From contig CM049307.1 in the NCBI GenBank assembly GCA_026874595.1, forward strand, positions 75,244,643 through 75,308,642: a stretch of 64,000 bases of DNA, in the 5' to 3' direction. The notes beneath the pieces were generated by a model, which searched no databases, had not been told where the DNA came from, and saw only the letters and a program-made list of their open reading frames with translations. The translations under genes and the position numbers were made by a program. Source of the DNA: Sipunculus nudus (Eukaryota > Annelida > Sipuncula > Golfingiida > Sipunculidae). Of the stretch, positions 17,594 through 60,600 are shown one piece after another. Numbering within the stretch: the stretch's first letter is position 1; each line of letters starts with the position of its first letter.

Positions 17594-20500
17594 CAAGGAA
17601 ACACCTTTTGTTTACATTTCACATGCGCATGCTTACATAATATTACTTATTCCACTAAGTCCTTGCCACAAGAAAACCCATGTTTATGTAATTTGACTTG
17701 AGCAAATTCTTATTCAACGTACTTAACGGACTCAATACCCTCTTCACTATTTATACTACGCCATCTGTATATGCAGAAGCCCCGGTGCATTGTGGGCTGC
17801 ATATTTAGAAGCCTACAAACCCTAACCAGCAGAGTCGTTATCTTGAGAGTCCGATTCTGCCCAATGTGACAGTTATCCACACGGTTCTTTGATTGACTGG
17901 TCACTTACGGCAGCCAGAACAAGAGCTAATCAAATTTGGACATTACAGTCTAAACGTTAGGCGGTAGAGAGTTTTCCTTAGTCACATTTTTATTACATAT
18001 ATCATAGGGATCGAAACTTGAAGTGAGGAATTAAAGGCAAAGTTTGAGAGAGATTAGTTTAGTCATAAAAGGCATTTATTTCTTTTTAATTATCTGAGTG
18101 TACTCATGATCAAGATACATATATTAAGTTACAAAATACCTGGGAGTCTGAAATTGAGCCAGCGACGTCATTATTGTTTTTCATCGTGGATATTGATAAT
18201 TTTATCAGCAACATGAAGAGCGCAAGGAATTCAAACAAAAGTTTCAAGGTTTAGTACCGTTTATGTTACACAGTTAACACATTACGCCAGTCAGCCAGAT
18301 AATCAAATAATCCAATGATTCACACTTTAGGGATCTGTGTGAACTTCTAATTTTTTCATTTAAACAATTCGTTTTTTTAGCCGTTTCGTACCGTTCCTTC
18401 CTTTTCACAATCCGTGTATCACATGTGACGGTTTTTGCGGTGGTCTGTTAACATCTTTCATTTCGCGTGTCAAATGACAGGCCTTTCCCGGTATTTCGGC
18501 AAAACCTATCTTTTCGAGTGTCATGTATTTCGCGGTATTCTGTTATTACATCTCATTTCGAGTGACACATGACAGGCTTTTCCCGGTATTTCGGCAAAAC
18601 CTTTCTTTTCGAGTGTCACGTATTTCGCGGTATTCTGTTGTATAATCTCATTTTGAGTGTCACGTGTCAAGATTTTTACGGTGGTCTGTTAAATCTTTCA
18701 TTTCGAGTGTCATATGACAGGTTTTGCCCTGTATTTGACGTACCTATCTTTTCGAGGGTAACGTATTTCGTGGTATTCTGTAATAACATCTCATTTTGAG
18801 TGTCACGTGTCAAGATTTTTCACGATGGTCTGTTAAAATCTTTCATTTCGAGTGTCACATAACAGGTTTACCCCAGTATTTCGACATAAACGTTCTTTGT
18901 CGAGTGTCAGGTGTTTCGCGTTATTCTGTAAAAACATCTCATTTTGAGTGTCACGTGTCAAGATTTTCACGGTGGTCCGTTAACATCATTAATTTCGAGT
19001 GTCACATGCAGGCTTTTCCCGATATTTCGGCAAAACCTATCTTTTCGAGTGTCACGTATTTTGCGGTATTCTGTTGAAACATCTCATTTCGAGTGTCACG
19101 GGTCTAGCTTTGCGCGGTGATCTGTTAAAATCTTTCATTTCGAGTGTCACATGGTAGGCTTTTCCTGGTGTGTCGACATAAAATTTCTTTTTCGAGTGTG
19201 CTTTTATAACATTTCATTTTGAGTATATCATATCACGCTTTCCGCGGTGATCTGTTAAAATCTTTCATTTCGAGTGTAGCGTGTCACCGCTTTTCGCAGT
19301 GGAATTTTATTATCTGTCATTTCGAGTTTCGTGGTTTGTTGTTATAGGTTAGTGTCACGTGTCATGTATTTCTTCGTTTTATTATAGGCTACTGTTATTT
19401 AATTTCAGTTGTCGCTTATTTCTCTGTTTTCTTCAACAACCGGTCATGTTCGAGAGCAAGTTTGCAAGTATTTCATCGTACTGTTATGGTCTTTTATAAA
19501 GTATACTGATTCCTTATATGTCTATTGTGCCTTACTGCGTGATAGATTTTTTACCATCTTTTTCTGAGACAGGTTCCTGAAAAGTTTATGTTACCTCATA
19601 CTGGGAAAACGGGGATTATAAAGACGCAATGTTCAACCAACAACTAGGGCTACAGGCTTGCTATTTTGGTTTTCCCACTGCTTCGGTGGTTTAATTTGTT
19701 TCACATATTCGGTTTCACATATTACCTTTCAGTTATGAATATTTAAACGTAGCCTTTATGCGATTATACTTCGCACATTTTCTCACGATATAACACGGTA
19801 TTACAATAATCCCGGTGAACTGAGTAAATAAAGTTGAAGTCAGAAAGGCACTCTATCACATGGTCTTAACATATACTGTGGTAGGCGTTTTGTTCGCGAG
19901 GGTTTCAAGTGGGCGGTATTCGTGAAATAATAAAACCTTCATGAGTAAGGCGCCACATCTGCACAGAAATTTATTTTATAGCCTCATCTCACGTATATTG
20001 TGCTGGTAGCGTCATTGTTAGCATACATTTTATGTTAACCGAAATTCAAATTTTGATTGATAATTTAAATTATATCAATTCTTATATATATCCGACACTG
20101 TTGTATATTATGAATTTCAAGCTGCTCAATGTTTTCATAGTTCTTCGTGCAATTGTTAAGACATATAGGTATCTTAATTATAAGGTGCATATGAGGTATA
20201 ATTAATAGAATAAGGGATATGTACATTATGAAAGTTACTATACGGTAAATCTCGAAAACGAAACCCTCACGAAATGCTGAAGAAGTGAAATTCGCGAATG
20301 TTTAACGTCGCGGAGGTGAATCCAATCACATCCGTTCAGCCTTAGGCATGCTGTGCATTCTTCCATAATGAATAATATCTCTTATAGTGAACCATGGCAT
20401 TATGGAGGTAAATCTGTTATAAAAGGAAGAATTAGGAGTGATCTTGATGGTGTTTTTGTTGGCTCAATATACATTGTCTTTCGATTGGCGGACTTTTCCC

Positions 20501-31300: not shown

Positions 31301-34300
31301 CACAACTTTCTTGTAACTGCACACTAACTGTTGTTATACCTGCTGAATATGAGTTTGCTATCAGAATACATTATTACGAATAATTGTGAAAAATCTTATT
31401 TACAGGTCTTTAATACCTATACTTAAGCTATTCTATACTGTATTGTGTTGATTGCAGCCTGAGGGAGGTAGGCCACATCAGTGTGTATATAAACAACTGG
31501 GTTCCCATCAGCTTCTGTCTGCCTCATAAAATGTACACAGAGCCCGCTGACTGCCAAAGGGTAAAGGTATGCAAGCCTGTTACAGTACCATAATGTATAA
31601 TTGGCAAAGTCATTATGTTGGTAAAAATTTTAAAAAGTGTCATCTGTGTCACAATTAATAAAGATGTTAAAATACATCATCCATGATCTAGTTCAGAAGT
31701 TTCATGCAACAATTAGTCGTTTAATGCTCAGTTGAGTGGTAAATTGCTTGGCTCTCTGCTGGCTACCTGGGCTCAATCCCCAGTGTGGTTGTGAGGATGG
31801 GTTGTAATTGGCCATCCAAGGTTGATGGTTTACTTGGGGACCCCTGGTTTCCTCTGCCCCCATAGACTACCAAACACCATCATCTGAGCGATGAAGAAAT
31901 CGCCTAGCATTAGTTATTATAAATAGTTGTAAGATTTATGTAAAATAAAAGTTTATATAGTTGTCAACAGTTGACCAGCCTGGCAATAAGATGAATGATC
32001 CAGAATGATCCGGGTAATATGGATAACTCCTGTGTGAAATGTTTTTAAAGCTGCTATGCATGCAACAGGATACATACACTCCTTATGTTGCAGGTTATGT
32101 AATTAGATAGCAAGGTATAGCAATGTTTATTGTATGTCAAGTATGAAAACGGCTGTTACACATAAATCTTTATCAGCATGCAAATTTGAAGCTGATTAGC
32201 CAGCCCTTTTCTTCTGGAGTGATGCTTTAATTGTTTCAATTTACTTTCTGTCAGGTCCACTTTGGGTAGAATTCCATACAAAAGTTAATAAAGTGAAATA
32301 TTAATAATTAATTCATGGATTATCAAGAAATTTGCTATGCATATTCATCTTGTTATACAGCCTGAAGCCATCCAGAAAATGCTGTCAGGAATAAGGTAAC
32401 AGAAAAAGCTGACTTCTATGACAAATTTAAAATCATGATAATACAGCTGTCTGTGTATTAATTAAAATATAATTTGATTGAATCATAAATGAACAGAGCA
32501 AAGTTTGTCTAATCTAAACATAGGAGTAGTAAGAAATAGATAATATTACAATATCTTGTCTAAAGTTGAAAAAAATGTAATAAAATTTAAAACTTTTGTT
32601 TATTTTATTAAATATCTCACAATTTGTTAAGTTATTTTATAATTATTTATTTTTTGTTCATTAATCATTGATCACAGGACGGCTTGGCTCCATTCACAGA
32701 TGACACCATTTTTATATTTTCAGACCATATCATGGTGTGCTGCTTCTCGTTGATCAGAGTGAGCTGCTGAAGTCATTGCCTCTGGATGCCAGCCCATCCC
32801 TCACTCGCCTCATCAAAGTGGCCAGTTCCCTGAAAAACCTGCAGAGCCTGGCTGCTGATGCTGATCTAGCTCTGTCGCATGTGAGTACCAGCAGAGCCAC
32901 ACTGATGCTATATGCTGCCTGTACCTCTGTTGTAACTAGCTCTGTCATGTGTGAGTAACAGCAGAGCCACACTGAAGCTATATGTAGCCTGTATCTCTAT
33001 TGTGACTAGCCCTGTCATGTGTGAGTAACAGCAGAGCCACGCTGAAGCTATATGTAGCCTGTATCTCTATTGTGACTAGCTCTGTCATGTGTGAGTAACA
33101 GCAGAGCCACACTGAAGCTATATGTAGCCTGTATCTCTATTGTGACTAGCTCTGTCATGTGTTAGTAACAGCAGAGCCACGCTGAAGCTATATGTAGCCT
33201 GTACCTCTTTTGTAACTAGCTCTGTCATGTGTGAGTAACAGCAGAGCCACACTGAAGCTATATGTAGCCTGTACCTCTGTTGTAACTAGCTCTGTCATGT
33301 GTAAGTAACAGCAGAGCCACGCTGAAGCTATATGTAGCCTGTACCTCTTTTGTCACTAGCTCTGTCATGTGTGAGTAACAGCAGAGCCACACTGAAGCTA
33401 TATGTAGCCTGTACCTCTGTTGTAACTAGCTCTGTCATGTGTGAGTAACAGCAGAGCCTGGCTGAAGCTATATGTAGCCTGTACCTCTGTTGTGACTAGC
33501 TCTGTCATGTGTGAGTAACAGCAGAGCCACGCTGAAGCTATATGTAGCCTGTACCTCTTTTGTAACTAGCTCTGTCATGTGTGAGTAACAGCAGAGCCAC
33601 ACTGAAGCTATATGTAGCCTGTATCTCTATTGTGACAAGCTCTGTCATGTGTGAGTAACAGCAGAGCCACGCTGAAGCTATATGTAGCCTGTATCTCTAT
33701 TGTGACTAGCTCTGTCATGTGTGAGTAACAGCAGAGCCACACTGAAGCTAAATGTAGCCTGTACCTCTTTTGTAACTAGCTCTGTCATGTGTGAGTAACA
33801 GCAGAGCCACACTGAAGCTATATGTAGCCTGTATGTCTATTGTGACAAGCTCTGTCATGTGTGATTAACAGCAGAGCCACACTGAAGCTATATGTAGCCT
33901 GTACCTCTGTTGTAACTAGCTCTGTCATGTGTGAGTAACAGCAGAGCCTGGCTGAAGCTATATGTAGCCTGTATCTCTATTGTGACTAGCTCTGTCATGT
34001 GTAGGTAACAGCAGAGCCACAATGAAGCTATATGTAGCCTGTATGTGTGAGTAACAGCAGAGCCACACTGAAGCTATATGTAGCCTGTACCTCTGTTGTA
34101 ACTAGCTCTGTCATGTGTGAGTAACAGCAGAGCCACACTGAAGCTATATGTAGCCTGTACCTCTGTTGTAACTAGCTCTGTCATGTGTGAGTAACAGCAG
34201 AGCCTGGCTGAAGCTATATGTAGCCTGTATCTCTATTGTGACTAGCTCTGTCATGTGTGAGTAACAGCAGAGCCACAATGAAGCTATATGTAGCCTGTAT

Positions 34301-37300
34301 CTCTATTGTGACTAACTCTGTCATGTGTGAGTAACAGCAGAGCCACGCTGAAGCTATATGTAGCCTGTACCTCTTTTGTAACTAGCTCTGTCATGTGTGA
34401 GTAACAGCAGAGCCACACTGAAGCTATATGTAGCCTGTATCTCTATTGTGACTAGCTCTGTCATGTGTGAGTAACAGCAGAGCCACGCTGAAGCTATATG
34501 TAGCCTGTACCTCTATTACAACCAGCTCAGCTGAGTAGCAACAGAGCAACACTGTTGTTTTGCACATTTCTCTGTTACATTAGAGTTGCAGCAGAGCCAC
34601 ACTGCTATAACTAGCTCGGTCACATATGACAAGCAGCAGAGCCACAAATAGTGTCAAATAGGATGATTTTTAATTTGTAAAAGTTTGCATTTAATGAGAC
34701 TTTGCTTGGATGTGCAACCTGTCATATTCCACAAATATATGTAGAATCACCTGTCAAGAATTATAAATGTTGCCAAGAAGTAGTGGGTAGCCAAACTTTA
34801 CTAACCTCTTATGTAAATATAACTTTTACTGCAACATAACATTAGGATGCATTATTTGAATGTTTCTCATTGTTTATTCAAATCATGCTGCCTTATGAAT
34901 ATAAGGGATGCCTCATAATGCTTAAATAAATTTTTCAAATTTGAGATTCCTTTTTATGTCCCACCAATACCAAAATAAGCCCAAAGTATTGAGAATATGA
35001 ATAATAATAAAGCTTTTGAGAATTCACATTTGAATTTGCCCACCCCTGCTTTCCATCGAGTTTGAACAAAGATAAATGGATGTCTTAAAATAAGATGTTT
35101 TTTTTCTCCCTTCAGGTCAACATTATTATAACTGAGGTTGCTGTTTTCTTCAGGTGTGTCAGCTGGTCTGCCATCTTGTGTACTGGGGTAAAGCGTTGTT
35201 GATTTACCCTTTGTGTGAGAGCAACACGTATGTTCTGTCCCCAGATGCCAATACATTCTTGTAAGTATAAACATAGTGGATATATTTAGAAATATTCACC
35301 ACATAAAATTTCAGGCAATAGGAAGGTGATTAAAGTTATCCAGCTGTGCAGGAATGTCTCCTTTGTGTGGTTCTGTTTAAAAAAGGTTGGTTTCTCAAGC
35401 AATATGTGCATCAATATTGAACACCCCCCCCCCCCCCCAACCTCGAAACATTTTACTTTGGTTTTAAGTAGGCATTTTCCAATTTTGAGCTCCAGCCACC
35501 TATACATTTCTTTCATGAAAAATGAAATTTCCTTTTGTTATGAATTGCTTTTTATTAAACAGCGATCATATAACCTGAGTATTATGGTAAACCCACTGTC
35601 TGTCTGTCTGTCCATCGATCTGTCCATGATTACCGTAAAATCTCCACTTAAAACCGCACTTCCGATTAAAACCGCACCCAGACTTCGCCGAAATTCCAGG
35701 TGAGACACCGCGAGAGGCTCAAATACTAAGAACCCCCCTTTAAAACCGCACCAATTTTTGCTACGGAATGATTTGACAAAAGACACAATCAAGCTATCAT
35801 CTAGAAATGAACAGGCGTAGGTTGCGACTCGGCCATTCCTGTCAACATTAAAATTCCTTGGGCATATTATTTAAACACATCATAACACTTTTTTTTGCAG
35901 GGTCACTCAAGCATGAAGTTTGGGAAGACGTAAGGGCCGATGAACCTCTGCCTGTTTATCCAGATTTTATATTCCGTGCCGTATTCTTGTTTACTACCGA
36001 TTTGTCATTGTATTTTGGAAAAAAAAATATTCTGCTGATGCATTTTAAGTCACTGTATATTTTAATTCTAAAAGTTATATTTTGAAATCTTAATTTTTGA
36101 TGAAAATTCCATTTTCTGGAATTACTTGGAAGATTCAAATCATTTTCATACCGGTTACTTCGGTATTATCATCGTCACATCGTACGTTGACATCGCTCCA
36201 TATCACAATTTGCTGGTGCGTTTGAAAACATCGCTGGTCTACTTAACTAAATATCAAAGTAACTGAAGTTACCTTGTCGAGATACGCACGTATAGGAAAC
36301 ATGACGCTTGAAAACGAGTGTTTTTAAGGTAAAATTAAAGTGGCCAGTCCGGGTAAGCAAGTTTTTTCCTGAAGAAAGTTTCCGTGTGGGGAGCCATTTT
36401 GTCAAGGCAGTGTTCGCGCAAGGCACGATGGGACGAAATAGGTGGCTGTTCTGTTTACCATCCACAGCGTACAGCCGTTCAAAATATTCTTGGCAGAATA
36501 CCAGGGCGTTTCAGCACATGGCGGCACTCAAACTTGATTTTAAAACGATCGTCTGCCATTGTGTGACTCTTTACGATGTCAGCCTTTTATTCATTTTACG
36601 TTTGAAACAAATAATTATTGCTAAATAATGCCGCAAATGGGTTTAAAGTAGGCTTTTATTTCAATTTTGCTTGACCATGCCCAACGAAGTGGGCCGCTGT
36701 GTGTTACAGCAGGGTTGTTGTAAACGTATTATTTGGTGACAATTACCAAGATTTTATTACAAGTTATATATCACACGAAAACTAATCAGCAATATTTAAT
36801 CTATAAATAACAAATAATCGTAAATAACACATTTACACACGGCTGCCATGCATGCGAGACTGCTGCTTAGAACGGCCTTCGAAAGTTGCGATATTATCGC
36901 CCACTCGCCGGCCCAAAAACGATGTCTGTCAGGAAGATATTCAGGAAACCCTTCTAGTATAAACCGCACAGTGCTTTCAGGAAATCAACCCGATTTCAAG
37001 ATTTTGAATTTCTTGATTAAACCGCGGTTTTAAGTGGAGATTTTACGGTACTTACCAACAGATTATCTGGCCTGAGTTAGATTACGGGCAACATCCACAC
37101 ATATTTAATAAGGTCATGGGTCATTAGGCTACTTTGTGGTGTTGCTGCAATAACTTTTGAAGGATATTGATAAAACTCATCAGAAATGTTAATCAATAAA
37201 ATATCTCGCCTAAGTTCGATTTCCAGCAAAACCAATGCATATTTAATGAGGTCTGAGGTCACTGCACTTTGGTGGCACCTTGGTGACTGACCAAAAATCC

Positions 37301-40300
37301 TATGGATTTTCATGAAACTCATTATACATAATTGCCAATAGAGGTTCTTACCTGAATTACCTTCTCATCAAAATTCAAGCATATTTAATGAGGTCAGAGG
37401 TAACCAGATACACAACTGGCGTATTATGCACAAATGCTGGGCTCTTGTTCTGTTTAGCAAATAGATTCTGTTATTATCATGTTGTTTCGATTCCCAGATG
37501 ATATGAAGTTTTTATCCAAAACCTGATATAAGACTGTTAAAAAATATAACCTGGCTGCACTGATTTCTGAAAAAAAGTGCCTGACAAGGGACAGGTAAAA
37601 TTCTCAAACGGCTTATAAATAAGTGCTAGTTTAAGTTCTTTTTGGCAACATACTAACATTCACTTCCTTATGTAATCTCCAATGATATATTGATTCAGCT
37701 GATGATAAATTAGTTCTGATTATCCTCCCAGCCATCTTATATGTTATATAATATACACAGCCTTTTTTAACAAACCTTTGAGGTTATGCAGTGGCGCAGC
37801 ACCTGCTGTTGTCCGCACCTTAATCCATGCTACCTCAAAAACCGTCTCAGCTAGCAGGGCCAAATTTTATGGAAGAATCAGTCATATTTCAAACTATATC
37901 GGATTGAGCTTATTTTTTGGCTACCTGCATTGACTTGGATTAAAATATCTTCCTCTCCGAAACTGTCAAACCAAATTGTTCAATATTTCACAGAAATAAT
38001 TCAAGAAATAATCTTTCTCAAGTATGTTCGAAGGGGTTTAGTTCAGTGATTTTTGGCAGTTACTGGAAGCTGAACATAGTCAAGTACCAAAAAAAGCATA
38101 CTGAAAATACAATCTCAGAAATGGCTGGAGCTTTTATCACCAAATTCTATGCAAATGTTGGCCTCATGATTCATATTTGAAATTGAGGTATTGTTGGCAC
38201 CACCTACATCCCCATTTTTGTAAGGGGGTCATCCTTTATCAGTACATTAACTCATAATTTCTCAGGAACAGCAAGAGCTAGCATCTGCTAATTTTATGCA
38301 AAAATCAGTCACATATCAAATGATTGACCTTTTTGTGGGGACACCTGCATCAACTTAAATTTTATGGAGAAAAGCTGTAAAACCTTTGAAAATATTCGCT
38401 GCCAAAATCGCTCAGCCAAATTATTCAATATTCACAGAAATGGTCCCAGAGATGAGCTCTCTCAAGTTTGTTCAAATGGTTTTGGTTCGATGAATTTTGG
38501 TCAAGTTACAAGAAGGTTAACTTAGTCATTTGGCCCAGTAAGCTTACTAACATTACAATCTCAGGCAAGGCAGGAGCTAGAATCACCAAGTGTTGTGCAA
38601 ATGTTTGTCACATGACTCATATTTGAAAATGAGGTTTATGTGATGCTATCTGCATCAAGCTGATTTTTACAGGCAAAAAACTAGTAATTTCAGCCTCTTT
38701 CTTCCACTGCATTAGAAATGTTTTATGATGGAACTGTCAACCGAATGGATTTATTCTTCACAAATGTTATCCTACTGTAGGGGTTTCTCATTTGTATAAA
38801 AATATATCTGGTTCATTGTTTTTTTGAGTCATAGAAAGCTGAAGATGGTCTTGTGGCCAAGTAAGCCTATATCAAACTAGGGGATGCAACAGTCTTTTCT
38901 GCAAAACTCTTGTTTCAAATTCTGAATCATTGCATAAAAATGACTTAATGGTGGCCTTGTTAAAGTTTACTTAAAGCATTTTTGGTTGAAGTTTGGACTT
39001 TTGTCTTTGGATAAATAAATCCATGAATAAAATATATCTGTATTCTGATTTAGCTTTCGATAGGCATCTGTTATTATTCTAAACCTTTTGATTAAAAAAT
39101 TCTTATGAATATGTCAGTTTGAAAAAAAAGCATTGTAGCCAGTCTTTCAGTGTGTTTAAACAGATTTACCAACAGGCCAAGGTTGTGTCTGTGTCTTTAA
39201 ATAGCTTGGCAGACTGCCAGCTATTTCAGATTTGGCAACAGACCAAGTTTCAGGTTTACAACATCCTTTTGATGACTGGCCCTCTTATTCATGGGGGTTT
39301 TATTTTCACTATAATGTCCCTTTTGCGAATATAGTGAATTTGAAACCCTCAATAACAAAAGACAACTGGAGTTTTTAGCCCTCAGCTCTTAGGCTGATGG
39401 GCTATTGTCGTCACCCAAGCTGTCCGTCTGTCCGTCCGTCCGGCGTCCGTTAACTTTTACCTTGTGAGCCGGATATCTTGAAAAGGATTCACCATCAGAA
39501 TTTTATTTCCTCGGTAAAGATGTATATCGACAAAATCTCAGTCAAGTTCGAAGATGGGTGACCTTGACCTATTTTTCTACATTTTAGAGCTGATTATAGA
39601 AAAACACTTAGATGCTAATTACTCAGGAACCATTTGGTGGATTTTCACAAAACTTACTATGGTTATTGGGACTGATAGTCTGTACCTGCTATACAAGTTT
39701 GGTGGCGCCACCTACAATTTCTGATTTTTAATGAATTTTTATCGGATTTTTCAACTTTGGTATGTGAGCGTATCCGGATATCTCGAAAAGGATTCACCGT
39801 AAGAATTTTATTTTTTCGGAGAAGATGTATATTGACAAAATCTCGGTCAAGTTCGAAGATGGGTGACCTTGACCTATTTTTCTACGTTTTAGAGCTGATT
39901 ATAGGAAAAACACTTAGATGCTTATTACTCAGGAACCATTTGGTGGATTTTCACAAAACTTACTATGGTTATTTGGACTGATAGTCTGTACCTGCTATAC
40001 AAGTTTGGTGGCGCCACCTACAATTTCTGATTTTTAATGAATTTTTATAGGATTTTTCAACTTTGGGCTTGTGAGCGGGATATCTCGAAAAGGATTCACC
40101 GTAGGAATTTTATTTTTTCGGAGAAGATGTATATTGACAAAGTCTCGGTCAAGTTCGAAGATGGGTGACCTTGACCTATTTTTCTATGTTTTAGAGCTGA
40201 TTATAGAAAAAACATTTAGAAGCTTATTTCTCAGGAACCATTGGATGGATTTTCACAATACTTACTATGATCATAGGGACTGATGGTCTGTAACTGCTGC

Positions 40301-43300
40301 ACAAGTTTGGGGGCGCCACCTGCAATTTCTGATTTTTTATTGAATTTTTCTTGGATTTTTCAACTTTGGCCTTGTGAGCGGGATATCTCTAAAAGGATTC
40401 ACAATAGGAATTTTATTTCTTTGGTGAAGATGTATATCGACAAAAATCCCGTTCATGTTTGAACATGGGTGACCTTGACCTACTTTTCAAGGTCACAGAG
40501 CTTATAATAGAATAAAACTTAGAAGCTTATTTTTCAGGAAGCATTTGGTGGATTGTTATGAATCATGGTACATACCTCTCCATTTTAAATTTATAACTGA
40601 GATATGTACAGATATCAACCATGTGAGAACAGATATTTAGTACTTGTTACTGTTACCACCTCTAAACACTGTTCATTTGGCTGAGGGCTTTTGTCAGCTT
40701 TTGCTGATATTCTAGTTATATCTATTTCACAGGATGGCCAAAATTTCTGACGAGTTTGCTCAGAAGTTCTCGGGGATATCCCTGCAGGCAGTGTTGTCAG
40801 AGTTCTCTCTCCCCACATCCCTGGTGGAACATAGAGATATACTTGGCCAGCCTCAGCAGCAGGTAATATAATTGTCATTTATTGTAATACCTTGATTGTT
40901 ATCGCCATCTTGTGTTCATGCATGGAACTTTTGTGTTACTGACAGGTAATGCTTGTTATCTGTATCTTGTACTTGAATTATGTATTAGTCCATTTTGTTT
41001 TCATGTGAAATTTAAAGGATAATTTACAATGAATTAAGTGCCAAGGTGTTGTTATGATATTGAAATGATACTGCATATATTAAGATATGAGGTATCAAAG
41101 GTAGTGAATGTAATTTTACATGGTAATTTGACAAGAAAAAGTTATTGTAATATTTATATCCCAAGCAAAAGTCTGTGATACTATGGTTTTAGCATGGTCC
41201 CACCGCAGCCACAGGTAAATTTTGTTTGTGTGATAACTCAAATTCATTTTACTAATCTTTACCATACTTGATATGTGCATAGATATGGATGAGGGGACAA
41301 AGCCTATTAAAATGGGGTCATGACCTCTGCTAATAAAGTGACCTTGACCTAGAATATTTCCATTTTTTGTGAAAATTGCACAAATTTTGATTTATCTCAA
41401 GAAAGCTTGCATGGATTGATCCAAAAATCAGGTTGACTGAAGATCATGGATAGCGTTGTCAGGTACCAGAAACCGGTTTGACCACCTGTTATGCTTTTCT
41501 TGTTTTCGCGCCTTTCAATACCCCCATCATTGCCACTTGACAGTACTGTGAGCATTACAAGTCAAAAATTATTTGACAGATTCCTTTCATGTTGATTTCT
41601 AGATTTCTTTCTTAAAATATTAACAGGTTGCTCCTTGGGTGTTACCCTAACCTGTTCAATTTTTAAGAAAAATCATGCTTGGTTTGTCTGTTAGCAATTT
41701 ACGCAAAAGTATAAATCTGTTCATTACTTTTATGTAAATTGCTCACAGACAAAGCAATACACTGAGTTGAACACATAATACATTTGCTCCCTGGCAGTTG
41801 TATAATAACACAGAACCTCTCATTATAGATATGTGTATGTATTCCCACAGAAAGAGCAAATAGAGATGGTGATTTGGATGCTGCAGCGCCGCCTTTTGGT
41901 ACAGTTACACACTTATGTGTTCTTTGTACCAAGCCCAGCAACAGTAGGGCGGAGGAATCAGAACCACAGCACAAACACAGGATCAGTGTCTGACGCAGCT
42001 TCAGGTTAGTCAGTACAAACACAGGATCAATGTCTGACACAGCTTCAGGTTAGTCAGTACAAACACAGGATCAGTGTCTGATACAGCTTCAGGTTAGTCA
42101 GTGACAAACACAGGATCAGTGTCTGATACAGCTTCAGGTTAGCCAGTGAAAAAAACAGGATCACTGTCTGATACAGCTTCAGGTTAGTCAATGACAAACT
42201 CAGGATCACTGTCTGATACAGTTTTAGGTCAGTCAGTACAAACACAGGATCAGTGTCTGATACAGCTTCAGGTTAGTCAGTACAAACACAGGATCAGTGT
42301 CTGATACAGCTTCAGGTTAGCCAGTACAAACACAGGACCAGTGTCTGATACAGCTTCAGGTTAGCCAGTGAAAAACACAGGATCACTGTCTGATACAGCT
42401 TCAGGTTAGCCAGTGAAAAACACAGGATCACTGTCTGATACAGTTTCAGGTCAGTCAGTACAAAAACAGGATCAGTGTCTGATACAGCTTCAGGTTAGTC
42501 AGTAACAAACACAGGATCACACTATTAATGATCTGCGAAACCTATGTTTTTGCAAGGGTTCTGCTGCTGTCTCCAAGTTAGTTACGGAAGAACTTCTCTG
42601 AGACCCTTGGACTGATCTTTCTGAAAACAAACATATTTGTTCCCTCACCTATGTAGTTGTGCGTAACAAAGACAGTAGGCATCACCTACAATCTTTTCTG
42701 TGCAGAACGAATGTGGGTGTCTTTAAGATAATAGCTGGTATCTCAGGAGTGGTTCAATGTATGGAGCTGAAATTTTGGATGTGTATAGATCTGGGATCTC
42801 TCCATCCTGTGATGGAGTCTGGGGGTGCCATTTAATTTTTATGTAGCATCCATCTTTGCATTTGCCATTTGTTCATCTTAGTGGTTGTTCAGAGTATTGG
42901 GTTGAAAATGTGCAGGTCCTAGACACCTCCATCTTGTAAGCAAGACTAATGATGGCATCTGCAATAGTTTTTGCATGGTGTACATCCGTAAATTTGTTTT
43001 GGGTGAAAATTGCTCATATCTTAGGAGTGGTTCAAGGTATTGGTCTGAATTTGGCATGTCCATCCATCTTGGAAGTTAATTCATAAACCAGACAGGTGGC
43101 TTCACCTATCTTCCCGTTTTTGTGGAATAAATTAATGCTCTTTTCTCAGGAGTGATTTGCTGTATTAGCTTGAAATTGTGCATATAACATGACATGAGAT
43201 TTATTAAGTGTTTATCTAACATAGAAAATCTTTACAGGTTTTGCAGTTAAAATGATGATTAAATTCTGTGGAAATTCCTGTGTGTAACAGAAAAATTGTG

Positions 43301-46300
43301 CATAAGCTATTATTGTATCCCCAGACAAAGTCGGGATACTATGGTTTCACGACGGTCCCGCCGCCGTCGCAGAAAAACCTTGTGAGCGGGATAACTCAAA
43401 AAATATTTCACTGATCTTTTTCAAACTTTACATTTGTATAGATATAGGTAAGGGGACATAGCCTATTTAAAATGGGGTCATGACCTATGCTAGGAGAGTG
43501 ACCTTGACCTTGAATAGGTCCATTTTTGCTGAAAATAACACAAATTCTTAAATATCTCAAGTAAGCTTGCATGGACTGGTCCAAAAATCAAGGTGACCAA
43601 TGATCTTGGATAGCCTTGCGATATACCGGAAACTGGTGGCGCCTGCTATTATCCTTTTCTTGTTTTTTCGCCTCTTAATACCCCCATAATTGCCACTTGA
43701 CAGTACTGTAAGCATTATAAGTCAAAAACTAATGGACAGATTTCTTTCATATTATGCACATGTAGAGAGATGGGTTATGGGATGAGGTCTATTTACATTT
43801 GGGTCATGACCTTTACCATGAGAGTGGCCTTGACCTTTAATGTGTCCATATTTGGTGAAAATCACACACCTCTTATGATATCTCCAGTTTTGATAGCCAT
43901 ATGGATTTCAAACGTGACTTATGTATGGCTCATCACTAAAGTAAAAACCCTATAAGTTCTAGGGTCATGAGGTCAAAGGTCAAAGTCACTGGACTCGCAT
44001 CTTAAAAGATACTGTGGATGCATTTTAAGCCAAACTTTCATCCCAGGTCTTCTATCTTGAATATATAGCTCACTTGCCAATAGTGGATGATCCATATCAA
44101 TTTTGGGGTCACAAGGTCAAAGGTCAAGGCCACAGGAGCTATCTGTCAAAAAATTAGTTTCTGAATGATAATTCCTGCTTTTATTGATGTATGGATTTCA
44201 AACTTGACTTGTATATGACCCATTGGAAAAGCAAGACCCGAATTGATTTTGGGGTCATGAGGTCAAAGGTCAAGGTCACAGGACACATCTTTAAAAAGAT
44301 TGTGGATGCATTTCCAGCCAAACAATTCATCTCAGATCTTTCATCTTGCACATATAGTTCACCTGCCAAGAGAGGAAGACCCCTATCAATTCTCAATCAA
44401 ACTCTTAAATATCTCAAGATCGTTTGCATGGATTGGTCCCAAAATCAAGGTGACAGAAGATCTTGGATAGCCTTGTGATGTGCCAAAAGGTCAAGGTCAC
44501 AGGACCAAAATCTTCAAAAAGATTGTGGATTGATAGATGGAAGAAACAATAATTGCTTGCCAAGTGTCAGTAAATGGTGCTAAAAATGGGGGCCTATTCT
44601 TAAAGGGGGGGGGGCGTACTATGTCTGGGGATACTGTGGCACATGCGGTGCCAAGAAATGTCTGGTTTTTAGCTCAGCTGACTTTCAGTCATGCTGAGCT
44701 ATAGCAATCACTCTTTGTCCGTCGTCCGTCTGTCCGTCCGTCTGTCCGTCTGTCCATTAACCTGGCACAAATTGTAACCGCTGGATTTAGAATCTTGTAA
44801 CTTTACATTCTGAGAGGTCAATGAAAAATCTCCTTGGAAACCAGAAATTAGGTCTCTGTTACCCATATCCTTCGAGCTATGGGGCCCCAAAGTACCCCCC
44901 AGAAAAGTAAAAAATTTCATACAAAAACTTCAATATCTCATTAACTACTTGACTGATGGTCATGATTTTTGGCATACTTATTGATCAAGAGATATTTCAT
45001 CAGTTCCTGAGGACTGGTGGCGCCACCTGTATTTTTCGATTTTTTACGAAATTTTTCTGTATTTTTGAGACCTTTAAAGATATGAACATCTGTTAACAGG
45101 GCACAAATCGTAACGACTGGACCTAGAATCTTCATTCTCGACGCACTGAGAGACCTATGAAAAGTCTCAATGGAAACCAGAAATTAGGTCTCTGTTACCC
45201 ATATCCTTCCAGCTATGGGGCCCCAAAGTACCCCCCAGAAAAGTAAAAAATTTCATGCAAAAACTTCAATATCTCATTAAATACTTGACTGATGGTCATG
45301 ATTTTTGGCATACTTATTGGTCATGAGATGTTCCATCACTTCCTGCAGACTGGTGGCGCCACCTGTATCGTTCAATTTTTTACGATTTTTTTTTCTATAT
45401 TTGAGACCTTTCAAAATGTGAACATCTGTTAACAAGGCACAAATCATAAAGACTGGACCTAGAATCTTAATTCTTGACACACTGAGAGGTCCATGAAAAA
45501 TATCCTTGGAAACCAGAAATTAGGTCTCTGTTAACCATATCCTACGAGCTATGGGGCCCCAAAGTACCCCCCAGAGTAGTAAAAAAATTCATACAAAAAC
45601 TTCAATATCTCAATGACTACATCACTGATGGTCATGATTTTTGGCATATATATTGATTATGAGATGTTCCATCAGTTCCTGCAGACTGGTGGCGCCCCCT
45701 GTATTGTTCGATTTTTCATGATTTTTTTCCTCTATTTTTGAGACCTTTAAGGATGCTGTCATCTGTTTGCGTGGCACAAATCGTAACAACTGGACCTAGA
45801 ATCTTCATTCTCGACACACTGAGAGACCTATGGAAAGTCTCCTTGGAAACCAGAAATTAGGTCTCTGTTACCCATATTCTTTGAGCTATGGGGCCCCAAA
45901 GTACCCCCCAGAGTAGTAAAAAATTTCATACAAAAACTTCAATATCTCATTAACTACTTGACTGATGGTCATGATTTGTGGCATAACTATTGATCATGAG
46001 ATTTGTCATCACTTCCTGCAGACTGGTGGCGCCACCTGTATCGTTGGATTTTTTATGAATTTTATTCTCTATTTTTGACACCTTTCAAAATGTGAACATC
46101 TGTTAACAAGGCACAAATCGTAAAGACTGGACCTAGAATCTTAATTCTTGACACACTGAGAGGTCCGTGAAAAATCTACTTGGAAACCAGAAATAAGGTC
46201 TCTGTTACCCATATCCTTTGAGCTATGGGGCCCCAAAGTACCCCCCCAGAGTAGTCAAAAATTTCATACAAAAACTTCAATATCTCAATACCTACATCAC

Positions 46301-49117
46301 TGATGGTCATGATTTTCGGCATACATATTGATCATGAGATGTATCATCAGTTCCTGCAGATTGGTGGCGCCACCTTTATTGTTTGATTTTTTCACGATTT
46401 TTTCCTCTATTTTTGAGACCTTTAAGGATGCTGTCATCTGTAAGCATGGCACAAATCGTAACGACTGGACCTAGAATCTTCATTCTGGAAACACTGAGAG
46501 ACCTATGAAAAGTCTCCATGGAAACCAGAAATTAGGTCTTTGTTACCCAACCCTAGAGCTATGGGGCCCCAAAGCACCCCCCAGAGTAGTAAAAAATTTC
46601 ATACAAAATCTTCAATATCTCAATAACTACAACACTGATGGTCATGATTTTCGGCATACATATGGATCATGAGCTGTTCCATCAGTTTCTGTAGACTGGG
46701 TGCGCCACCTCTATTTTTTTCAAATTTTTACGAATTTTTTTTCATATTTTTTGAGACCTTTAAAGATGTGGTTATTTGTCAACAGGGTACAAATTGCAAC
46801 AACTGGACCTAGAAACTTCATTCTTGTCATGCAAGGAGGCCCATGAAGAGTGCCTGTGGAAACTTGAAATTAGGTCTCTGTTACCCATATCCTTCAAGCT
46901 ATAGAAGCCTCAGAATAATGGACAATTTGATATAAAAGCTGAAGTATCTGAACAACTAATGCGGAGATCACCATGATTCTTTGCATGGAAATTGACCATT
47001 AAGTGTTTTTGTTTGTTTCTGCAGACTGGTGGAGCCACCTGTATTTTTGTATCCTCCAAAACGAAGTTTTGCAGATACTATGTTTTTGACCGTGTTCCTC
47101 CGCCGCCGCAACGTTTGTTTCCAGAGAGCTCCTCTGAGAAAATTGGACCGATTTTTCCGAAACTTACACTAATTATCTAGTCACATGTGAACTAGTGCCT
47201 AACCAATTCGTGTTGACCTCTGACCTTTCCCCTCTATCCAGCATCCATTTGTGCGTCTGATCCACACATAAACCCTCATATCTCGGGAACCGTTTGACCA
47301 ATCAGGAAGTAAAATTTATACAAATGTAGCCCTTTGATTGCTTTATAACATACACAAAAATGGTGGCGCCACCTGTAACCATGTTTGCACAGTGTCCATC
47401 TGTTCATCTGCCTTGGGTTAAAATCACTCATATCTCGGCAGTGGTTTGACATATCTGCCTAAAATTTTGCAGTTTTATACATCCTGGTTAGCTTTCTTGA
47501 TTTTATGACAGGTGGCGCCACCTACATTCTAGTTTATGCTTCAGACATCCGAGCTCATATCTCGGGAACCGTTTGAACGATTGGGCCAAAATTTTGCATG
47601 TGTATAGATCTCACATAGGTCTTTATCATACACAAAACTGGAGGGGCCACCTGCAACCATTTTTGCACAGCGTTTGTCTGTTTGTCTGCCGTCGGCTAAA
47701 ATCACTCATATACATGTAGTGGTTTGACTTTTCTGCCTAAAATTTTGCATATGTATACAACTTGGACAGCTTTCTGGATTTGTGGTAGGTGGCACAACCT
47801 ACATACACATATAGGCTGCAGACATCCATGCTAATATGCAACATACCTTACTCTATTTCCCCTTGCCACTCAATCCATGCCTCACTTCAACCGTTCCACT
47901 CTAATTTTGGCGGATACACGTAGTCACTTATCCGCTACCTGTATTCTAGTTTTTAAAGTTTACACATTTTTTCTCTATTTTTGAGATATATAAATACAGA
48001 CTAAATCTTGGCCTGTTGGTTAATCTGTTTGATGCTTCAGTTGAATGGGTATATACTACCATTCTGATGATAAAATTTCCTTTAGCGAATCTCTTCCCAG
48101 TCAGCTGAGCGTCATGACCCATGGGTCACTTGTTAAATGCAAAATGATCACAGGTGAGCTGTGGTCCTTGAAGCAATAGTTAATACCATATTATGCCTAT
48201 CAGTATGCTGACATGATGTTATGTTGTTAATCAGAAAAACACTGGACTGACTGGGTTTTTTTTTTTGTTTTTTTTTTTTGCAGTGTTCAGTGATGACACA
48301 CAGAGCTTGACATTCTCCACAAAAACTCCGTCAGTAGATGTAGCCTTGGATGGAATGGTGATAACTGAAGAAACACGATCACACTGGAGGCATCAGGATA
48401 CCATGCTGTCCAGCCTTACCCAGCAGCAGGACTATGTGCTGAATGTACCTGCTGCCAGTCAGCCTGAAGATCTTAAACTGTTTAAAAGGTATGTCATGCT
48501 GTATGCCAGCTAGTGTTTGTAATTATTTGTAATATCACATTTTATGATTGACAGCAAAAAGCAACCAATCATTTATTACTGATTATTACTGTTTCTGTGA
48601 AACACCAACTTGCGCAGGGCAGACTGCTGTTTTGTCAGACTTTTGATGGTTTTGCATATTTTGTTTGCTGTATCTTCCTACATCTGCTACTGACCTACTG
48701 TTGAGCAATAATAACTCCAAAACTAATCAACATCTCTTATATTTAGTATGTATATAACGATGAGTGACTGCCTCTAGTTTGATAGTTTGAAGCAAGATTT
48801 GTGTTGCCACCTAGTGTCAGGAGATATGAGTTAGAGGAAGGCGCCCGTTTTAAATTAGATATAAGGGATAAAGAACTGTAGATACTATGACAGCCATATA
48901 TTTCGAGTTATTTACAATTCATTTTTTTCAGAGAATATGTATTGTTTTCTGTTGCAGGCTTTGCCCATACTTCAATGGTCGTCACCATCTGGAGGAAATT
49001 ATGTTTTATGAAAACTTACGAAGATCGCAACTGGTGACATTGCTGGACAAATTTAGAGACGTTTTGATCACATGTCAACATGAGGATCCTGTAATGACCG
49101 CTTGGGTCCATAGGTAG
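22242..49117 (+). CDS. NPRL3: NPRL3, GATOR1 complex subunit
   Basis: Thirteen coding exons join in phase: 22242-22359, 24151-24205, 29015-29207, 29614-29767, 30403-30478, 31458-31566, 32361-32395, 32724-32880, 35154-35260, 40733-40862, 41851-42004, 48284-48488 and 48958-49117. They give 550 residues; vertebrate NPRL3 is about 569. Family signatures seen are [16 protein letters not shown] at the N-terminus, [67 protein letters not shown] and, at the C-terminus, GRHHLEEIM and HEDPV. GATOR1 (with NPRL2 and DEPDC5) promotes GTP hydrolysis by RagA/B at the lysosome and restrains mTORC1 when amino acids are low. The exon 1 donor (AGAC/GTATGA) is the weakest border, and exon 6 could instead end at 31560, also in phase. 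Exons 8 and 11 end inside tandem arrays. Confidence 0.95.
22360..24150. other. NPRL3 intron 1
   Basis: A (TC)n microsatellite at about 22390-22423 lies just downstream of the exon 1 donor. The remainder is AT-rich without recognised elements; no exon was needed here to keep phase. Confidence 0.6.
24450..24675. repeat. 34-bp minisatellite (GGTGGTCTTATAAGACA type) in NPRL3 intron 2
   Basis: The unit alternates 'ggtggtcttataagacag' and 'gtggtcttaatagaca(g/t)'. GTCTTATAAGAC is itself a 12-bp perfect palindrome. About six to seven units are present. The leading text at 24345-24450, 'attagaccaccca..gtggtctta', looks like the founding sequence of the array. Confidence 0.75.
25080..25505. repeat. 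Dispersed repeat, family E, copy 1
   Basis: Text such as 'gcaacatccacgcatattta', 'tatggattttcatgaaact' and 'ggcgtattatgcac' is shared with 37050-37450 in NPRL3 intron 9. It ends in 'gtgctcttgtt' in both. It is probably a non-autonomous element; the class is not assigned. Confidence 0.55.
25506..27705. other. NPRL3 intron 2, unassigned part
   Basis: The region is AT-rich, with several interrupted frames on the minus strand at 26775-27107 and 27399-27835. These may be decayed transposon coding, but no motif was recognised. Confidence 0.35.
27706..28103. mobile_element. MITE-like element, second copy
   Basis: Ends TACCCCTTTCACA and TGTGAAAGGGGTA are perfect inverted repeats of 13 bp. The interior matches the element at 104-430. 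It is flanked by TA-rich sequence, consistent with a TA target. It lies in NPRL3 intron 2. Confidence 0.75.
28291..28321. repeat. (TA)n microsatellite
   Basis: An uninterrupted TA dinucleotide run in NPRL3 intron 2. A poly-G run lies at about 28828-28840. Confidence 0.9.
31720..31945 (+). mobile_element. tRNA-derived SINE in NPRL3 intron 6
   Basis: A tRNA-like head carries an A-box-like 'gttgagtggtaaattgcttgg' region and a B-box-like 'gggctcaatccc'. A body and AT-rich tail follow ('aaatagttgtaag..aaaataaa'). A second copy of the head lies at 49926-50049. Confidence 0.6.
32866..34525 (+). repeat. 70-bp minisatellite copying the exon 8 splice donor of NPRL3
   Basis: The array begins inside exon 8: CTAGCTCTGTCGCAT/GTGAGTAcCAGCAGAGCC is unit 1, and later units read CTAGCTCTGTCATGT/GTGAGTAACAGCAGAGCC. 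Donor-like sites fall at 32881, then every 70 bp to 34001, then at 34047 (one shortened unit), and every 70 bp to 34467: 24 in all, counting the real one. Most are GTGAGTA; variants are GTTAGT (33161), GTAAGT (33301), GTGATT (33861) and GTAGGT (34001). Degraded units continue to about 34650. Confidence 0.95.
35580..35630. repeat. Family E repeat, left piece of copy 2
   Basis: 'ttatggtaaacccactgtctg' matches the start of the repeat at 25093. Its remainder resumes at 37051 after the inserted transposon at 35631-37050. Confidence 0.5.
35631..37050. mobile_element. DNA transposon with about 27-bp inverted ends, TA target
   Basis: The left end CCGTAAAATCTCCACTTAAA and the right end TTTAAGTGGAGATTTTACGG are perfect inverted repeats, each bordered by TA. 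'AACCGC' text continues inward on both sides. The TA duplication suggests an IS630/mariner/Tigger-like or similar source. No intact transposase is visible in the 1.4 kb, so it is non-autonomous. It interrupts a family E repeat in NPRL3 intron 9. Confidence 0.85.
37051..37455. repeat. Family E repeat, right piece of copy 2
   Basis: It continues the repeat broken at 35630: 'cttaccaacagattatctgg' parallels 'cttaccaacagattaccagc' at 25174, and both end in 'gctcttgtt'. Confidence 0.6.
37790..38892. repeat. Old tandem-repeat element in NPRL3 intron 9
   Basis: Diverged internal units recur, for example 'atgcaaatgttggcctcatgattcatatt' and 'gtgcaaatgtttgtcacatgactcatatt'. A degenerate box 'ttggcaccacct' lies at 38195. 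It is probably an aged member of the same class as the Helentron-like elements. Confidence 0.4.
38893..39340 (+). repeat. Dispersed repeat, family F, copy 1
   Basis: The stretch matches 52440-52950 in order. Shared landmarks are 'tctgtattctgattt', 'catctgttat', 'gaaaaa(..)gcattgt', 'cagactgcca' and 'ctatttcag'. The class is unknown. Confidence 0.6.
39377..40715 (+). mobile_element. Helentron-like non-autonomous element, family D
   Basis: The left end AGCCCTCAGC folds with GCTGATGGGCT. The inverted partner GGCTGAGGGCT is at 40679. The 3' hairpin TCAGC-tttt-GCTGA follows at 40694-40707, and the end is tatt-CTAG/TT at 40715. The core has four units of about 303 bp, each with 'gatatct(c)gaaaaggattcac', 'ggtgaccttgacct' and, in the first three, a GGTGGCGCCACC-type box. 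Its 3' end is 17 bp from the NPRL3 exon 10 acceptor. Confidence 0.75.
40703..40732 (+). promoter_or_regulatory. NPRL3 exon 10 acceptor with transposon-derived branch point
   Basis: Only TTATATCTATTTCACAG separates the element end (CTAG at 40715) from exon 10 at 40733. The best branch-point match, CTGAT with A at 40707, lies 25 bases before the acceptor AG, inside the element's terminal hairpin. The branch-point call is inference from consensus and spacing. Confidence 0.5.
41159..41590 (+). mobile_element. Helentron-like family B, truncated old copy
   Basis: 'atcccaagcaaaagtctgtgatactatgg' is a decayed version of the family B left end. The following 'gataactcaa', 'ggggtcatgacct' and 'agtgaccttgacct' parallel 43315 onward. 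The 3' end is missing. It lies in NPRL3 intron 10. Confidence 0.55.
41970..42530 (+). repeat. 44-45-bp minisatellite copying the exon 11 splice donor of NPRL3
   Basis: Each unit contains about 34 bases of the exon 11 end (acaaacacaggatcagtgtc, then tgatacagcttcag) plus the donor GTTAGTCAGT. GT positions are 42005 (real), 42049, 42093, 42138, 42183, 42228, 42272, 42316, 42360, 42405, 42450 and 42494. Variants include GTTAGC and GTCAGT. Reading past the real donor gives TCA GGT TAG, an immediate in-frame stop. Confidence 0.95.
42540..43240. repeat. Decayed tandem-repeat element in NPRL3 intron 11
   Basis: Units such as 'catatcttaggagtggttcaaggtattggtctga' recur and match the interior of the family B element at 55280-55870. 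No clean ends were found. Confidence 0.5.
43315..44665 (+). mobile_element. Helentron-like non-autonomous element, family B, copy 1
   Basis: The left end GTATCCCCAGACAAAG folds with the adjacent CGGGATAC. Near the right end GTCTGGGGATAC is its inverted partner, followed by the hairpin TGGCAC-atgcg-GTGCCA and then CTGG/TTTTT. The core has repeated 'ggggtcatgacc', 'gaccttgacct' and 'caaaggtcaaggtcaca' blocks. It lies in NPRL3 intron 11 and ends five bases before a family C element starts. Confidence 0.75.
44671..48132 (+). mobile_element. Helentron-like family C, copy 1, with nested family A
   Basis: The left end AGCTCAGCTGACT folds with AGTCATGCTGAGCT, followed by a CCGTCTGTCCGTC-type tract. 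Near the right end CAGTCAGCTGAGC is the inverted partner, followed by the perfect hairpin TGACCCATGGGTCA and cTTG/TT. The core is seven units of about 335 bp, each with a GGTGGCGCCACC-type box (45016, 45352, 45688, 46024, 46364 and degenerate boxes near 46697 and 47028). The family A element at 47049-47949 is inserted in the last unit. It lies in NPRL3 intron 11. Confidence 0.75.
47049..47949 (+). mobile_element. Helentron-like family A, copy 2 (nested)
   Basis: It starts GTATCCTCCAAAACG and ends CTAG/TT after a GTAGTCACTTATCCGCTAC hairpin. It sits inside family C copy 1 at the same position as copy 3 inside family C copy 2. Confidence 0.75.
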
Positions 49118-57645: not shown

Positions 57646-60600
57646 AGCTCAGCTGACTGAAAGTCATCTGAGCTATAGCGATCACTCTTTGTCCGTCGTC
57701 CGTCTGTCCGTCTGTCCGTCTGTCCGTCCGTTAACCAGGCACAAATCGTAACCGCTGGACCTAGAACCTTGTAACTTGGGATTCTGAGAGGTCAATAAAA
57801 AATCTCCTTGGAAACCAGAAATTAGGTCTCTGTTACCCATATCCTTCGAGCTATGTGGCCCCAAAATACCCCCCAGAAAAGTCAAAAATTTCATACAAAA
57901 ATTTCAATATCTCATTAACTACTTGACTGATGGTCATGATTTTTGGCATACATATTGATCATGAGATGTTACATCATTTCCTGCAGACTGGTGGCGCCAC
58001 CTGTATTTTTCGATTTTTTACGAATTTTTTTCTCTATTTTTGAGACCTTTAAAAATGTGAACATCTGTTAACAAGGCACAAATCATAAAGACTGGACTTA
58101 GAATCTTAATTCTTGACAGACTGAGAGGTCCATGAAAAATCTCCTTGGAAACCAGAAATTAGGTCTCTGTTACCCATATCCTACGAGCTATGGGGCCCCA
58201 AAGTACCCCCCAGAATAGTAAAAAATTTCATACAAAAACTTCAATATCTCAATAACTACATCACTGATGGTCTTCATTTTTGGCATACATATTGATCATG
58301 AGATGTTGGATCAGTTCCTGCAGACTGGTGGCGCCACCTGTACTGTTTGATTTTATACGATTTTTTCCTCTATTTTTGAGACCTTTGAGGATGCTGTCAT
58401 CTGTTAGTGTGGCACAAATCGTAACGACTGGACCTAGAATCTTCATTTTCGACACACTGAGAGACCTATGAAAAGTCTCCATGGAAACCAGAAATTAGGT
58501 CTCTGTTACCCATATCCTTCGAGCTATGGGGCCCAAAATTACCCCCCAGAATAGTCAAAAATTTCATACAAAAACTTCAATATCTCATTAACTACATCAC
58601 TGATGGTCATGATTTTCGACATACATATTGATCATGAGATGTTTCATCAGTTTGTGCAGACTGGTGGCGCCACCTGTATTTTTCAATGTTCACGAATTGT
58701 TTTCTCCATTTTTGAGACCTTTAAGGATGTAGTTATCTGTCAACAGGGTACAATTCGTAACGACTGGACCTAGAATCTTCGTTCTTGACACACAGGGAGA
58801 CCCATGATAAGTCTCCATGGAAACCTGAAATTTGGTCCCTGTTACCCATATCCTTTGAGCTATGGCACTCCAAAGTACAGCTCAGAATAATGGAAAATTT
58901 GATACAAAAGCTAAAGTATCTGAACAACTAATGCAGAGATAACCATAATTGTTTGCATGGATATTGATCATGGAGTGTTTCATAAGTTTCTGCAGACTGG
59001 TGGCACCACCTGTATTTGTTCGGTTTTTTTTACGAAATTTTTCTGTATTTTTGAGACCTTTAAAGATATGAACATCTGTTAACAGGGCACAAATTATAAA
59101 AACTGGACCAAGAATCTTCATTCTTGACACACAGGGAGACCCATGAAAAGTCTCCATGTAAACTTGAAATTAGGTCTCTGTTACCCATATTCTTTAAGCT
59201 GTATGGGTCCAAAATACCCCCCCCCCCCCCAGAATAATGGAAAATTTGATACAAAAACTGCAGTATTTCAATAACTACAACACTGATGGTCATGATTTTC
59301 GGCATACATATTGATCATGAGCTGTTCCATCAGTTTCTGCAGACTGGGTGTGCCACCTCTATTTTTTTTCAAATTTTTACGAATTTTTTTCTTTTTTTTT
59401 GAGACCTTTAAAGATGTGGTTATCTGTCAACAGGGTACAAATCGCAACAACTGGACCTAGAATCTTCATTCTTGTCATGCAAGGAGGCCCATGAAAGGTG
59501 CCTGTGGAAACTTGAAATTAGGTCTCTGTTACCCATATCCTTCAAGCTATAGGACTCCGAAGTATCCCTCAGAATAATGGACAATTTGATACAAAAACTG
59601 AAGTATCTGAACAACTAATGCAGAGATCACCATGATTTTTTGCATGGATATTGACCATTAAGTGTTTTTATTAGTTTCTGCAGACTGGTGGAGCCACCTG
59701 TATTTTTGTATCCGCCAAAACGAAGTTTTGCGGATACTATGTTTTTGACCGAGTTCCTCCGCCGCGGCGGCGTTCGTTTCCAGAGAGCTCCTCGGAGACT
59801 AATGGACGGATTTTTCCCAAACTTACACCTATTATCGGGTCACATGTGAACTGGTGCCTAACCAATTTGCATTGACCTCTGACCTTTCCTCTCTATCCAG
59901 TGTCCATTTGTGGGTCTGTTTCCACTCATAAACCCTCATATCTCGGGAACCGTTTGACCGATCAGGAAATAAAATTGATACAAATGTAGCCCTTGGATTG
60001 CTTTATAACATCTGTTCATCTGCCTTGGGTTAAAATCACTCATATCTCTGCAGTGAATTGACTAATTCACCTGAAATTCGTCATGTGTATACATCCAGGA
60101 TAGCTTTCTTGATTTTATGACAGGTGGCGCCACCTACGTTCACGTTCACGCTGATGACATCCAAGCTTATATCTCGGGAACCGTTTGACCGATCAGGAAA
60201 TAAAATTTATACAAATGTAGCCCTTTGATAGCTCTGTAACATACACAAAAAATGGTGGCGCCACCTGTAACAATGTTTGCACAGCGTCTGTCTGTTAGTC
60301 TGCCGTGGCCTTAAATTACTCATTTCTCTGTAGTGGTTCAACATAACTGCCTTAAATTTTGCAGGTTTATACATCGTGGACAGCTTTCTTGATTTTATGA
60401 CAGGTGGCGCCACCTACATTCTAGTTAACGCTGGACACATCCAAGCTCATATCTCAGGAACCATTTGACCGATTGGGCCAAAATTGTGCATGTGTTTAGA
60501 TCTCACATAGGTCTTTATCATACACAAAACTGGAGGGGTTACCTGCAAAGATTTTTGCACAGTGTTTGTCTGTTTGTCTGCCATGGGCAAAAATCGCTCA

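Follow-up and report, generated by a model that had tools for sequence, protein, structure and literature searches.

How does a spliceosome find the end of an exon when the intron that follows opens with copy after copy of the same 5' splice site? The question is posed by NPRL3 of the sipunculan worm Sipunculus nudus, which lies in a window of 64,000 nucleotides (GenBank assembly GCA_026874595.1, contig CM049307.1, positions 75,244,643 to 75,308,642 of the forward strand) taken from contig C2 of the 1.43-Gb genome; all of the data given below come from this single assembly. The boundary between NPRL3 exon 8 and intron 8 is spanned by a tandem array of a 70-bp unit in 24 copies (32866-34513; this array and the NPRL3 exons, donors and second array described below are on the + strand), and a 5' splice-site-like hexamer is found in every copy. 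We hold with good confidence that the array is a boundary-spanning minisatellite of the kind called a 'mirage' in lancelets, that it is near-neutral and that only the copy attached to the exon would be spliced.

The exon 8 array and its splice donor

Exon 8 (whole codons 32725-32880, with an acceptor AG ending at 32723) has a 52-residue translation that matches human NPRL3 as present in GATOR1 (PDB 6ces, E 3.7e-13) and encodes the residues up to ...DADLAL. The array begins at 32866, within the exon and 15 nt before its end at 32880, and those last 15 nt form the first part of copy 1. Tandem Repeats Finder (TRF) gave two calls, 32866-34043 and 34035-34528 (period 70, 93% matches). The anchor sequence CAGCAGAGCC was counted 24 times up to 34475, with two further occurrences in a tail of degenerate trailing copies (34514-34678, from the unit list and the sequence), the tail reaching ~34678. 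One copy is shortened to 46 bp (33984-34029). Of the 2273 bp that make up intron 8, 1633 (~72%) belong to the array. An earlier sequence-only reading of the window had named the gene, placed the end of exon 8 and proposed that 24 copies of 70 bp begin inside that exon. The PDB 6ces match together with the frame into exon 9 bears out the first two points, as do TRF and the anchor count the third.

When the segment 32800-33100 was used as query against the genome, 11 matching places were found, all within the exon 8 array, although this search passes over very common words and its result is not proof of rarity. Insertion of a satellite or transposon was considered as the origin of the array and thought unlikely, since the segment matches only one locus and copy 1 begins within conserved coding sequence.

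The GT dinucleotide is kept in all 24 copies. The 5' splice site of intron 8, CAT/GTGAGT (32881-32886; the slash marks the splice junction), is followed by 23 intronic decoy donors (32951-34472), 19 of which read TGT/GTGAGT, the others being one each of GTTAGT, GTAAGT (33301), GTGATT and GTAGGT. Judged by reading frame and by human NPRL3, the true donor is the one at 32881. It joins exon 8 in phase 0 to exon 9 (35154-35259), an exon placed through its continuity with exon 8 and with human NPRL3 rather than by a search of its own, and preserves both the frame and the spacing into that exon. The spacing between exons 8 and 9 is presumably the same as in human NPRL3. With splicing at donor 2 (32951) the mRNA would gain 70 nt; these are free of stop codons but change the reading frame, and both alternative frames of exon 9 contain stops. 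A TAA codon (32956-32958) lies just past the second donor and would be included if donor 3 or any later donor were used. The proposal that distal donors wreck the frame therefore stands for the 70-nt shift and the exon 9 stops, whereas the stop codon it had placed in the first repeat falls beyond donor 2, so the donor 2 insert is stop-free. Given these stops and frameshifts past the first donor, the exon-attached copy should be the one that serves the normal protein. Our argument that regular splicing at exon 8 would go undisturbed is one of reading frame only.

Donor strength was scored with a nine-position, human-type matrix. The true donor scored 9.1, the common decoy 5.4 and the 33301 site 4.6. 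None of the exon 8 decoys scored was above the true donor, and the copies after 34030 contain only TGT/GTGAGT. GTAAGT is indeed present at 33301, but the assertion that it is closer to consensus than the true donor holds for its six intronic bases only and fails over nine positions (4.6 vs 9.1). The energy of the duplex with U1 RNA, when the register was free to shift, did not separate true donor from decoy (-7.0 vs -7.1).

Arrays at other exon boundaries

A second boundary-spanning array is present in the same gene. It consists of 12.4 copies of a 44-bp unit (41967-42519, from TRF, sequence and scoring) and starts 38 nt before the end of exon 11 (41851-42004), which ends CTTCAG/GTTAGT; the last 38 nt of the exon are copy 1. 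Exon 11 was assigned from a Pfam NPR3 match (E 0.023, below the curated cut-off), from the order of NPRL3 and from phase 1, which agrees with the next exon. GT is kept in 12 of 12 copies, and six of the 11 intronic donors have scores equal to or above that of the true donor. Reading beyond the true donor meets a TAG within 5 nt. Between NPRL3 exon 9 and an exon 10 candidate near 40733 there is also a 302-bp tandem repeat of 3.6 copies (39461-40554).

Donor arrays elsewhere in the genome were sought as three AGGTRAGT motifs in series, at short and at long spacing. The two sets of 100 listed places, taken in their order, comprise 28 distinct arrays (19 plus 9 new ones), and the places among which supported donor arrays occur reach ~181 Mb (short spacing) and ~117 Mb (long spacing). 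Eight of these 28 arrays adjoin an exon with a database match and a frame open to the first donor: PI4K2A (L027, 8.3e-32), PKA RI-alpha (L018, 1.1e-25), an aquaporin (L022, 1.6e-12), a TPR protein (L025, 8.8e-9), HADH (L020, 1.9e-8, the sole array supported by the NCBIfam scan), an ABC transporter (L015, 4.5e-6), a dynein stalk (L016, 9.5e-5, with at least 40 copies) and a SKAP-type PH domain (L013, PDB E 0.0011, the weakest of the eight). Note that the ABC transporter and dynein matches fall just under the Pfam curated cut-offs. Frames were scanned for 25 of the 28 arrays (all except L009, L021 and L024), not always in all three frames. Exon candidates seen by eye at L017, L019, L023, L026, L028, L029, L031 and L032, and at the acceptor place L063, were without support and remained uncounted, as did Pfam matches to other families at E 0.01 for L019 and L026. 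Across the donor arrays about 6 to 40 near-identical donors stand in series. For AGGTRAGT alone the genome could hold ~60 or more supported arrays, by rough extrapolation.

A control of 20 single AGGTRAGT places gave none with database support, versus 8 of 28 for the arrays (Fisher p 0.014). All of the control places fall within the initial 0.75 Mb of contig C1, where gene density may differ, and the comparison is given little weight; 13 of them had no open frame of at least 20 residues, six were scanned and one (L034) has a repeat-coded frame that was left unscanned. That last place (C1:63334-64000) is itself a repeat with a 185-residue open frame of QVRRHKPN-like units that ends at a AGGTGAGT motif. 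In a further comparison, made on 24 of the 28 arrays, the open frame leading to the first donor was longer than the frames at upstream GT sites of the same locus in 10 arrays at the 0.05 level (Fisher combined p 5e-8). L009 and L012 lacked an upstream control, and the first donor of L014 and of L021 was not found automatically.

Eleven donor arrays, among them L019 despite its lack of database support, were used for scoring and read-through. The median decoy score equaled that of the first donor in 10 of the 11 (decoys without GT excluded), and hence donor choice cannot rest on strength alone; by this matrix, strength-based choice was rejected as a general rule. In 10 of these 11 arrays, a stop codon is reached no more than 78 nt beyond the first donor. 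The 42-bp donor array at the ABC transporter exon (L015, ~2465-3201) is open in frame over the 60 codons read, and each copy could add 14 codons.

The equality of decoys and first donors would fit an explanation in which some of the intronic donors are spliced. Turri, Cuin and Porter are said to have described, in 1995, a minisatellite with multiple splice donors in human IFI6 (6-16, G1P3). Two downstream copies of that minisatellite are used as donors and three mRNAs result, according to a later account (PMC4526556, citing Turri 1995). The NPRL3 array is like that of IFI6 in being a minisatellite made of repeated donors. Comparable use in NPRL3 would give alternative, mostly stop-bearing transcripts that are degraded, and could thereby tune the level of NPRL3. 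We consider such use unlikely. The common exon 8 decoy lies ~3.7 bits under the true donor, and lancelet mirages are reported to be without aberrant mRNAs (PMC3087553, PMC3902484). Moreover, in a difference from IFI6, splicing at a downstream copy in NPRL3 would cause a frameshift or run into a stop.

Acceptors were searched for as TTTTNCAGG in series, which gave 11 listed places, one of which (L062) lacks a TRF array at the motif. At three of these 11 places the final copy continues into a conserved exon, that of MMS19 (L057, Pfam 4.4e-13), DOCK (L061, 7.7e-32) or USP39 (L064, PDB 3.6e-15), and in these three arrays the exon-attached acceptor is the last one. In the MMS19 array (L057, ~14-266) the exon-attached acceptor is TTTTTTAG versus TTTTTCAG in the five preceding copies of the fetched stretch, and thus the exon-attached acceptor does not look like the strongest. 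Splice-boundary arrays are therefore found at both 5' and 3' exon edges of this genome, and the exons beyond NPRL3 that have the same arrangement with database support number 11, eight on the donor side and three on the acceptor side. A donor-only asymmetry, which simple tolerance predicts, was not borne out: acceptor arrays adjoin exons.

The rates at which the motifs occur in series bear on another explanation, in which 5' splice sites, through their sequence, R-loops or U1, are hot spots of tandem duplication. Triples per single occurrence of the donor motif were 2.1- and 2.7-fold those of its backward control, as opposed to 0.5-fold for the acceptor motif, and listed arrays per single occurrence were 2.0 times as frequent for donors as for acceptors (p 0.067). 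These numbers would fit donor-specific seeding. Against it, the share of places with database support is similar at acceptors (3/11 vs 8/28, Fisher p 1.0). Large arrays also inflate the triple counts, which do not represent independent events, and across the initial 7.6 Mb of C1 four arrays of the backward motif stand against one of the donor motif at equal spacing. The backward-motif places were dominated by these few large arrays (four in 7.6 Mb) and were not used for the exon comparison. Donor-specific seeding seems to us improbable, and a donor hot spot is not claimed.

Probable origin and tolerance of the arrays

The boundary-spanning minisatellite could have arisen and persisted as follows. 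A short segment straddling the junction of exon 8 and intron 8 would have been duplicated in tandem, then expanded and homogenized as are other minisatellites, with growth by slippage or unequal exchange. The spliceosome would stay with the copy joined to the exon and later copies would become intron, leaving the transcript unchanged. Decoys would be tolerated if signals attached to the exon pick the site (exon definition). Any use of another copy would bring a frameshift or a stop, and the faulty products would be eliminated through frameshift or decay. In all likelihood the array is nearly neutral.

The array was probably founded by the exon, since the protein sequence that copy 1 encodes is shared with mammals. 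Such conservation is strong in PI4K2A (...VDQKLQLNIVPRTK) and in PKA RI-alpha (...FFIITE); in NPRL3 only LAL is conserved in the 15-nt exonic part of the array. In five of the 10 donor arrays compared, copy 1 is identical to the array consensus over its exonic part; L025 was excluded from this comparison, in which a loose threshold over-counted the exon 8 copies and misaligned L015.

A broader proposal, on which we are almost evenly divided and lean slightly toward doubt, is that boundary splice-site arrays form a genome-wide class affecting the donors and acceptors of perhaps at least 100 genes, and that the exon-attached site (first donor or last acceptor) is the one used despite up to ~40 often identical copies.

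Several observations weigh against the near-neutral reading of the array. The true exon 8 donor outscores every decoy scored, and selection against strong decoys may have acted on that array. No counted database match was found in 17 of the 28 donor arrays, all 17 with scanned frames. The stops within 78 nt of the first donors roughly match the non-coding expectation and hence give no sign of selection, and the L015 array, being open in frame, might be used. On the acceptor side the frame-length test was weak: only two of 11 places reached the 0.05 level and neither was among MMS19, DOCK and USP39. Finally, the excess of donor triples together with the deficit of acceptor triples is not predicted by plain neutrality at any boundary.

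The arrangement seen at exon 11 and at the 11 other supported exons also bears on function. The sequence-only reading had suggested that the exon 8 array might buffer the true donor, act as a U1 sink or produce variable transcripts. No sign of any of the three was seen in the sequences examined, which do not support them, and the notion of the array as a special device of NPRL3 likewise finds no support given its recurrence at those other exons. In the functional version of the idea, extra donors would shield or reinforce the true donor, or prevent premature polyadenylation, and the array would be retained for that reason. What recommends it is the abundance of U1-matching sites over the initial 1.6 kb of intron 8, together with a U1 of this genome that has a canonical 5' end (by eye, on the reverse complement). 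We nevertheless consider it very improbable. The exon 8 decoys lack exonic matches, and arrays are present also at acceptors, which do not bind U1. Furthermore, the genome contains at least 42 matches to the U1 snRNA gene, and with so many matches titration of U1 by the 23 sites of one intron would be implausible. These U1 matches form two tandem clusters on contig C6 (50.26-50.37 Mb and 88.24-88.30 Mb), mostly ~2.8-2.9 kb apart and with equal scores.

Other repeats are present in the window. A 336-bp family forms two arrays, 44717-46902 (6.4 copies) and 57690-59707 (5.8 copies), each after a GTCC/TGTC microsatellite; we take these to resemble the tandem-repeat-bearing non-autonomous elements of bivalve genomes. 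Further tandem arrays lie at 2660-3745 (units of ~273-279 bp) and at 18458-19199 (units of 95-145 bp with a recurring TTTCGAGTGTCA motif).

Relation to known systems

The main comparison is with lancelets, whose genome is about one third of 1.43 Gb. Lancelet mirages, in Adh3, troponin C, globins and PGBD5, are tandem repeats across exon-intron boundaries, both 5' and 3', and the reports describe splicing as undisturbed and copy number as unstable (PMC3087553, PMC3902484). The S. nudus arrays are alike in that the repeat spans the boundary, the copies carry AG or GT splice signals and both types of boundary are affected. They differ in copy number, which is 24 at NPRL3 exon 8 and 40 or more at the dynein exon (L016), in the presence of two arrays in one gene and in the 11 further supported exons.

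Minisatellite expansion at exon edges is also known from human segmental duplications, where a genome-wide screen of duplicated genes identified 27 cases of introns modified by such repeats, with novel introns and alternative transcripts reported (PMC2812944). The arrays described here share the expansion at exon edges; those in the human screen are reported to have formed novel introns, whereas none are shown here. In the model of Rogers, introns are gained by tandem duplication (PMC4974935), and our arrays likewise involve tandem duplication of a segment with splice signals. Unlike in the model, the copies lengthen an existing intron and the intronic part of the array stays within one intron. 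No other genome-wide account of boundary arrays was found in the literature searched, most subscription papers being outside its reach.

These loci are natural cases of splice-site choice, with near-identical donors in series and a reading frame from which the copy required for the normal protein can be told. The choice among nearby identical splice sites has reportedly been studied mainly with built constructs. If only the exon-attached copy is used, the loci would test exon definition directly, would show intron lengthening by growth of minisatellites from exon edges and would be a warning to annotators about boundary arrays. Should the exon-attached rule hold across the genome, it would be exon definition, rather than site strength or proximity to the intron, that decides in this species.

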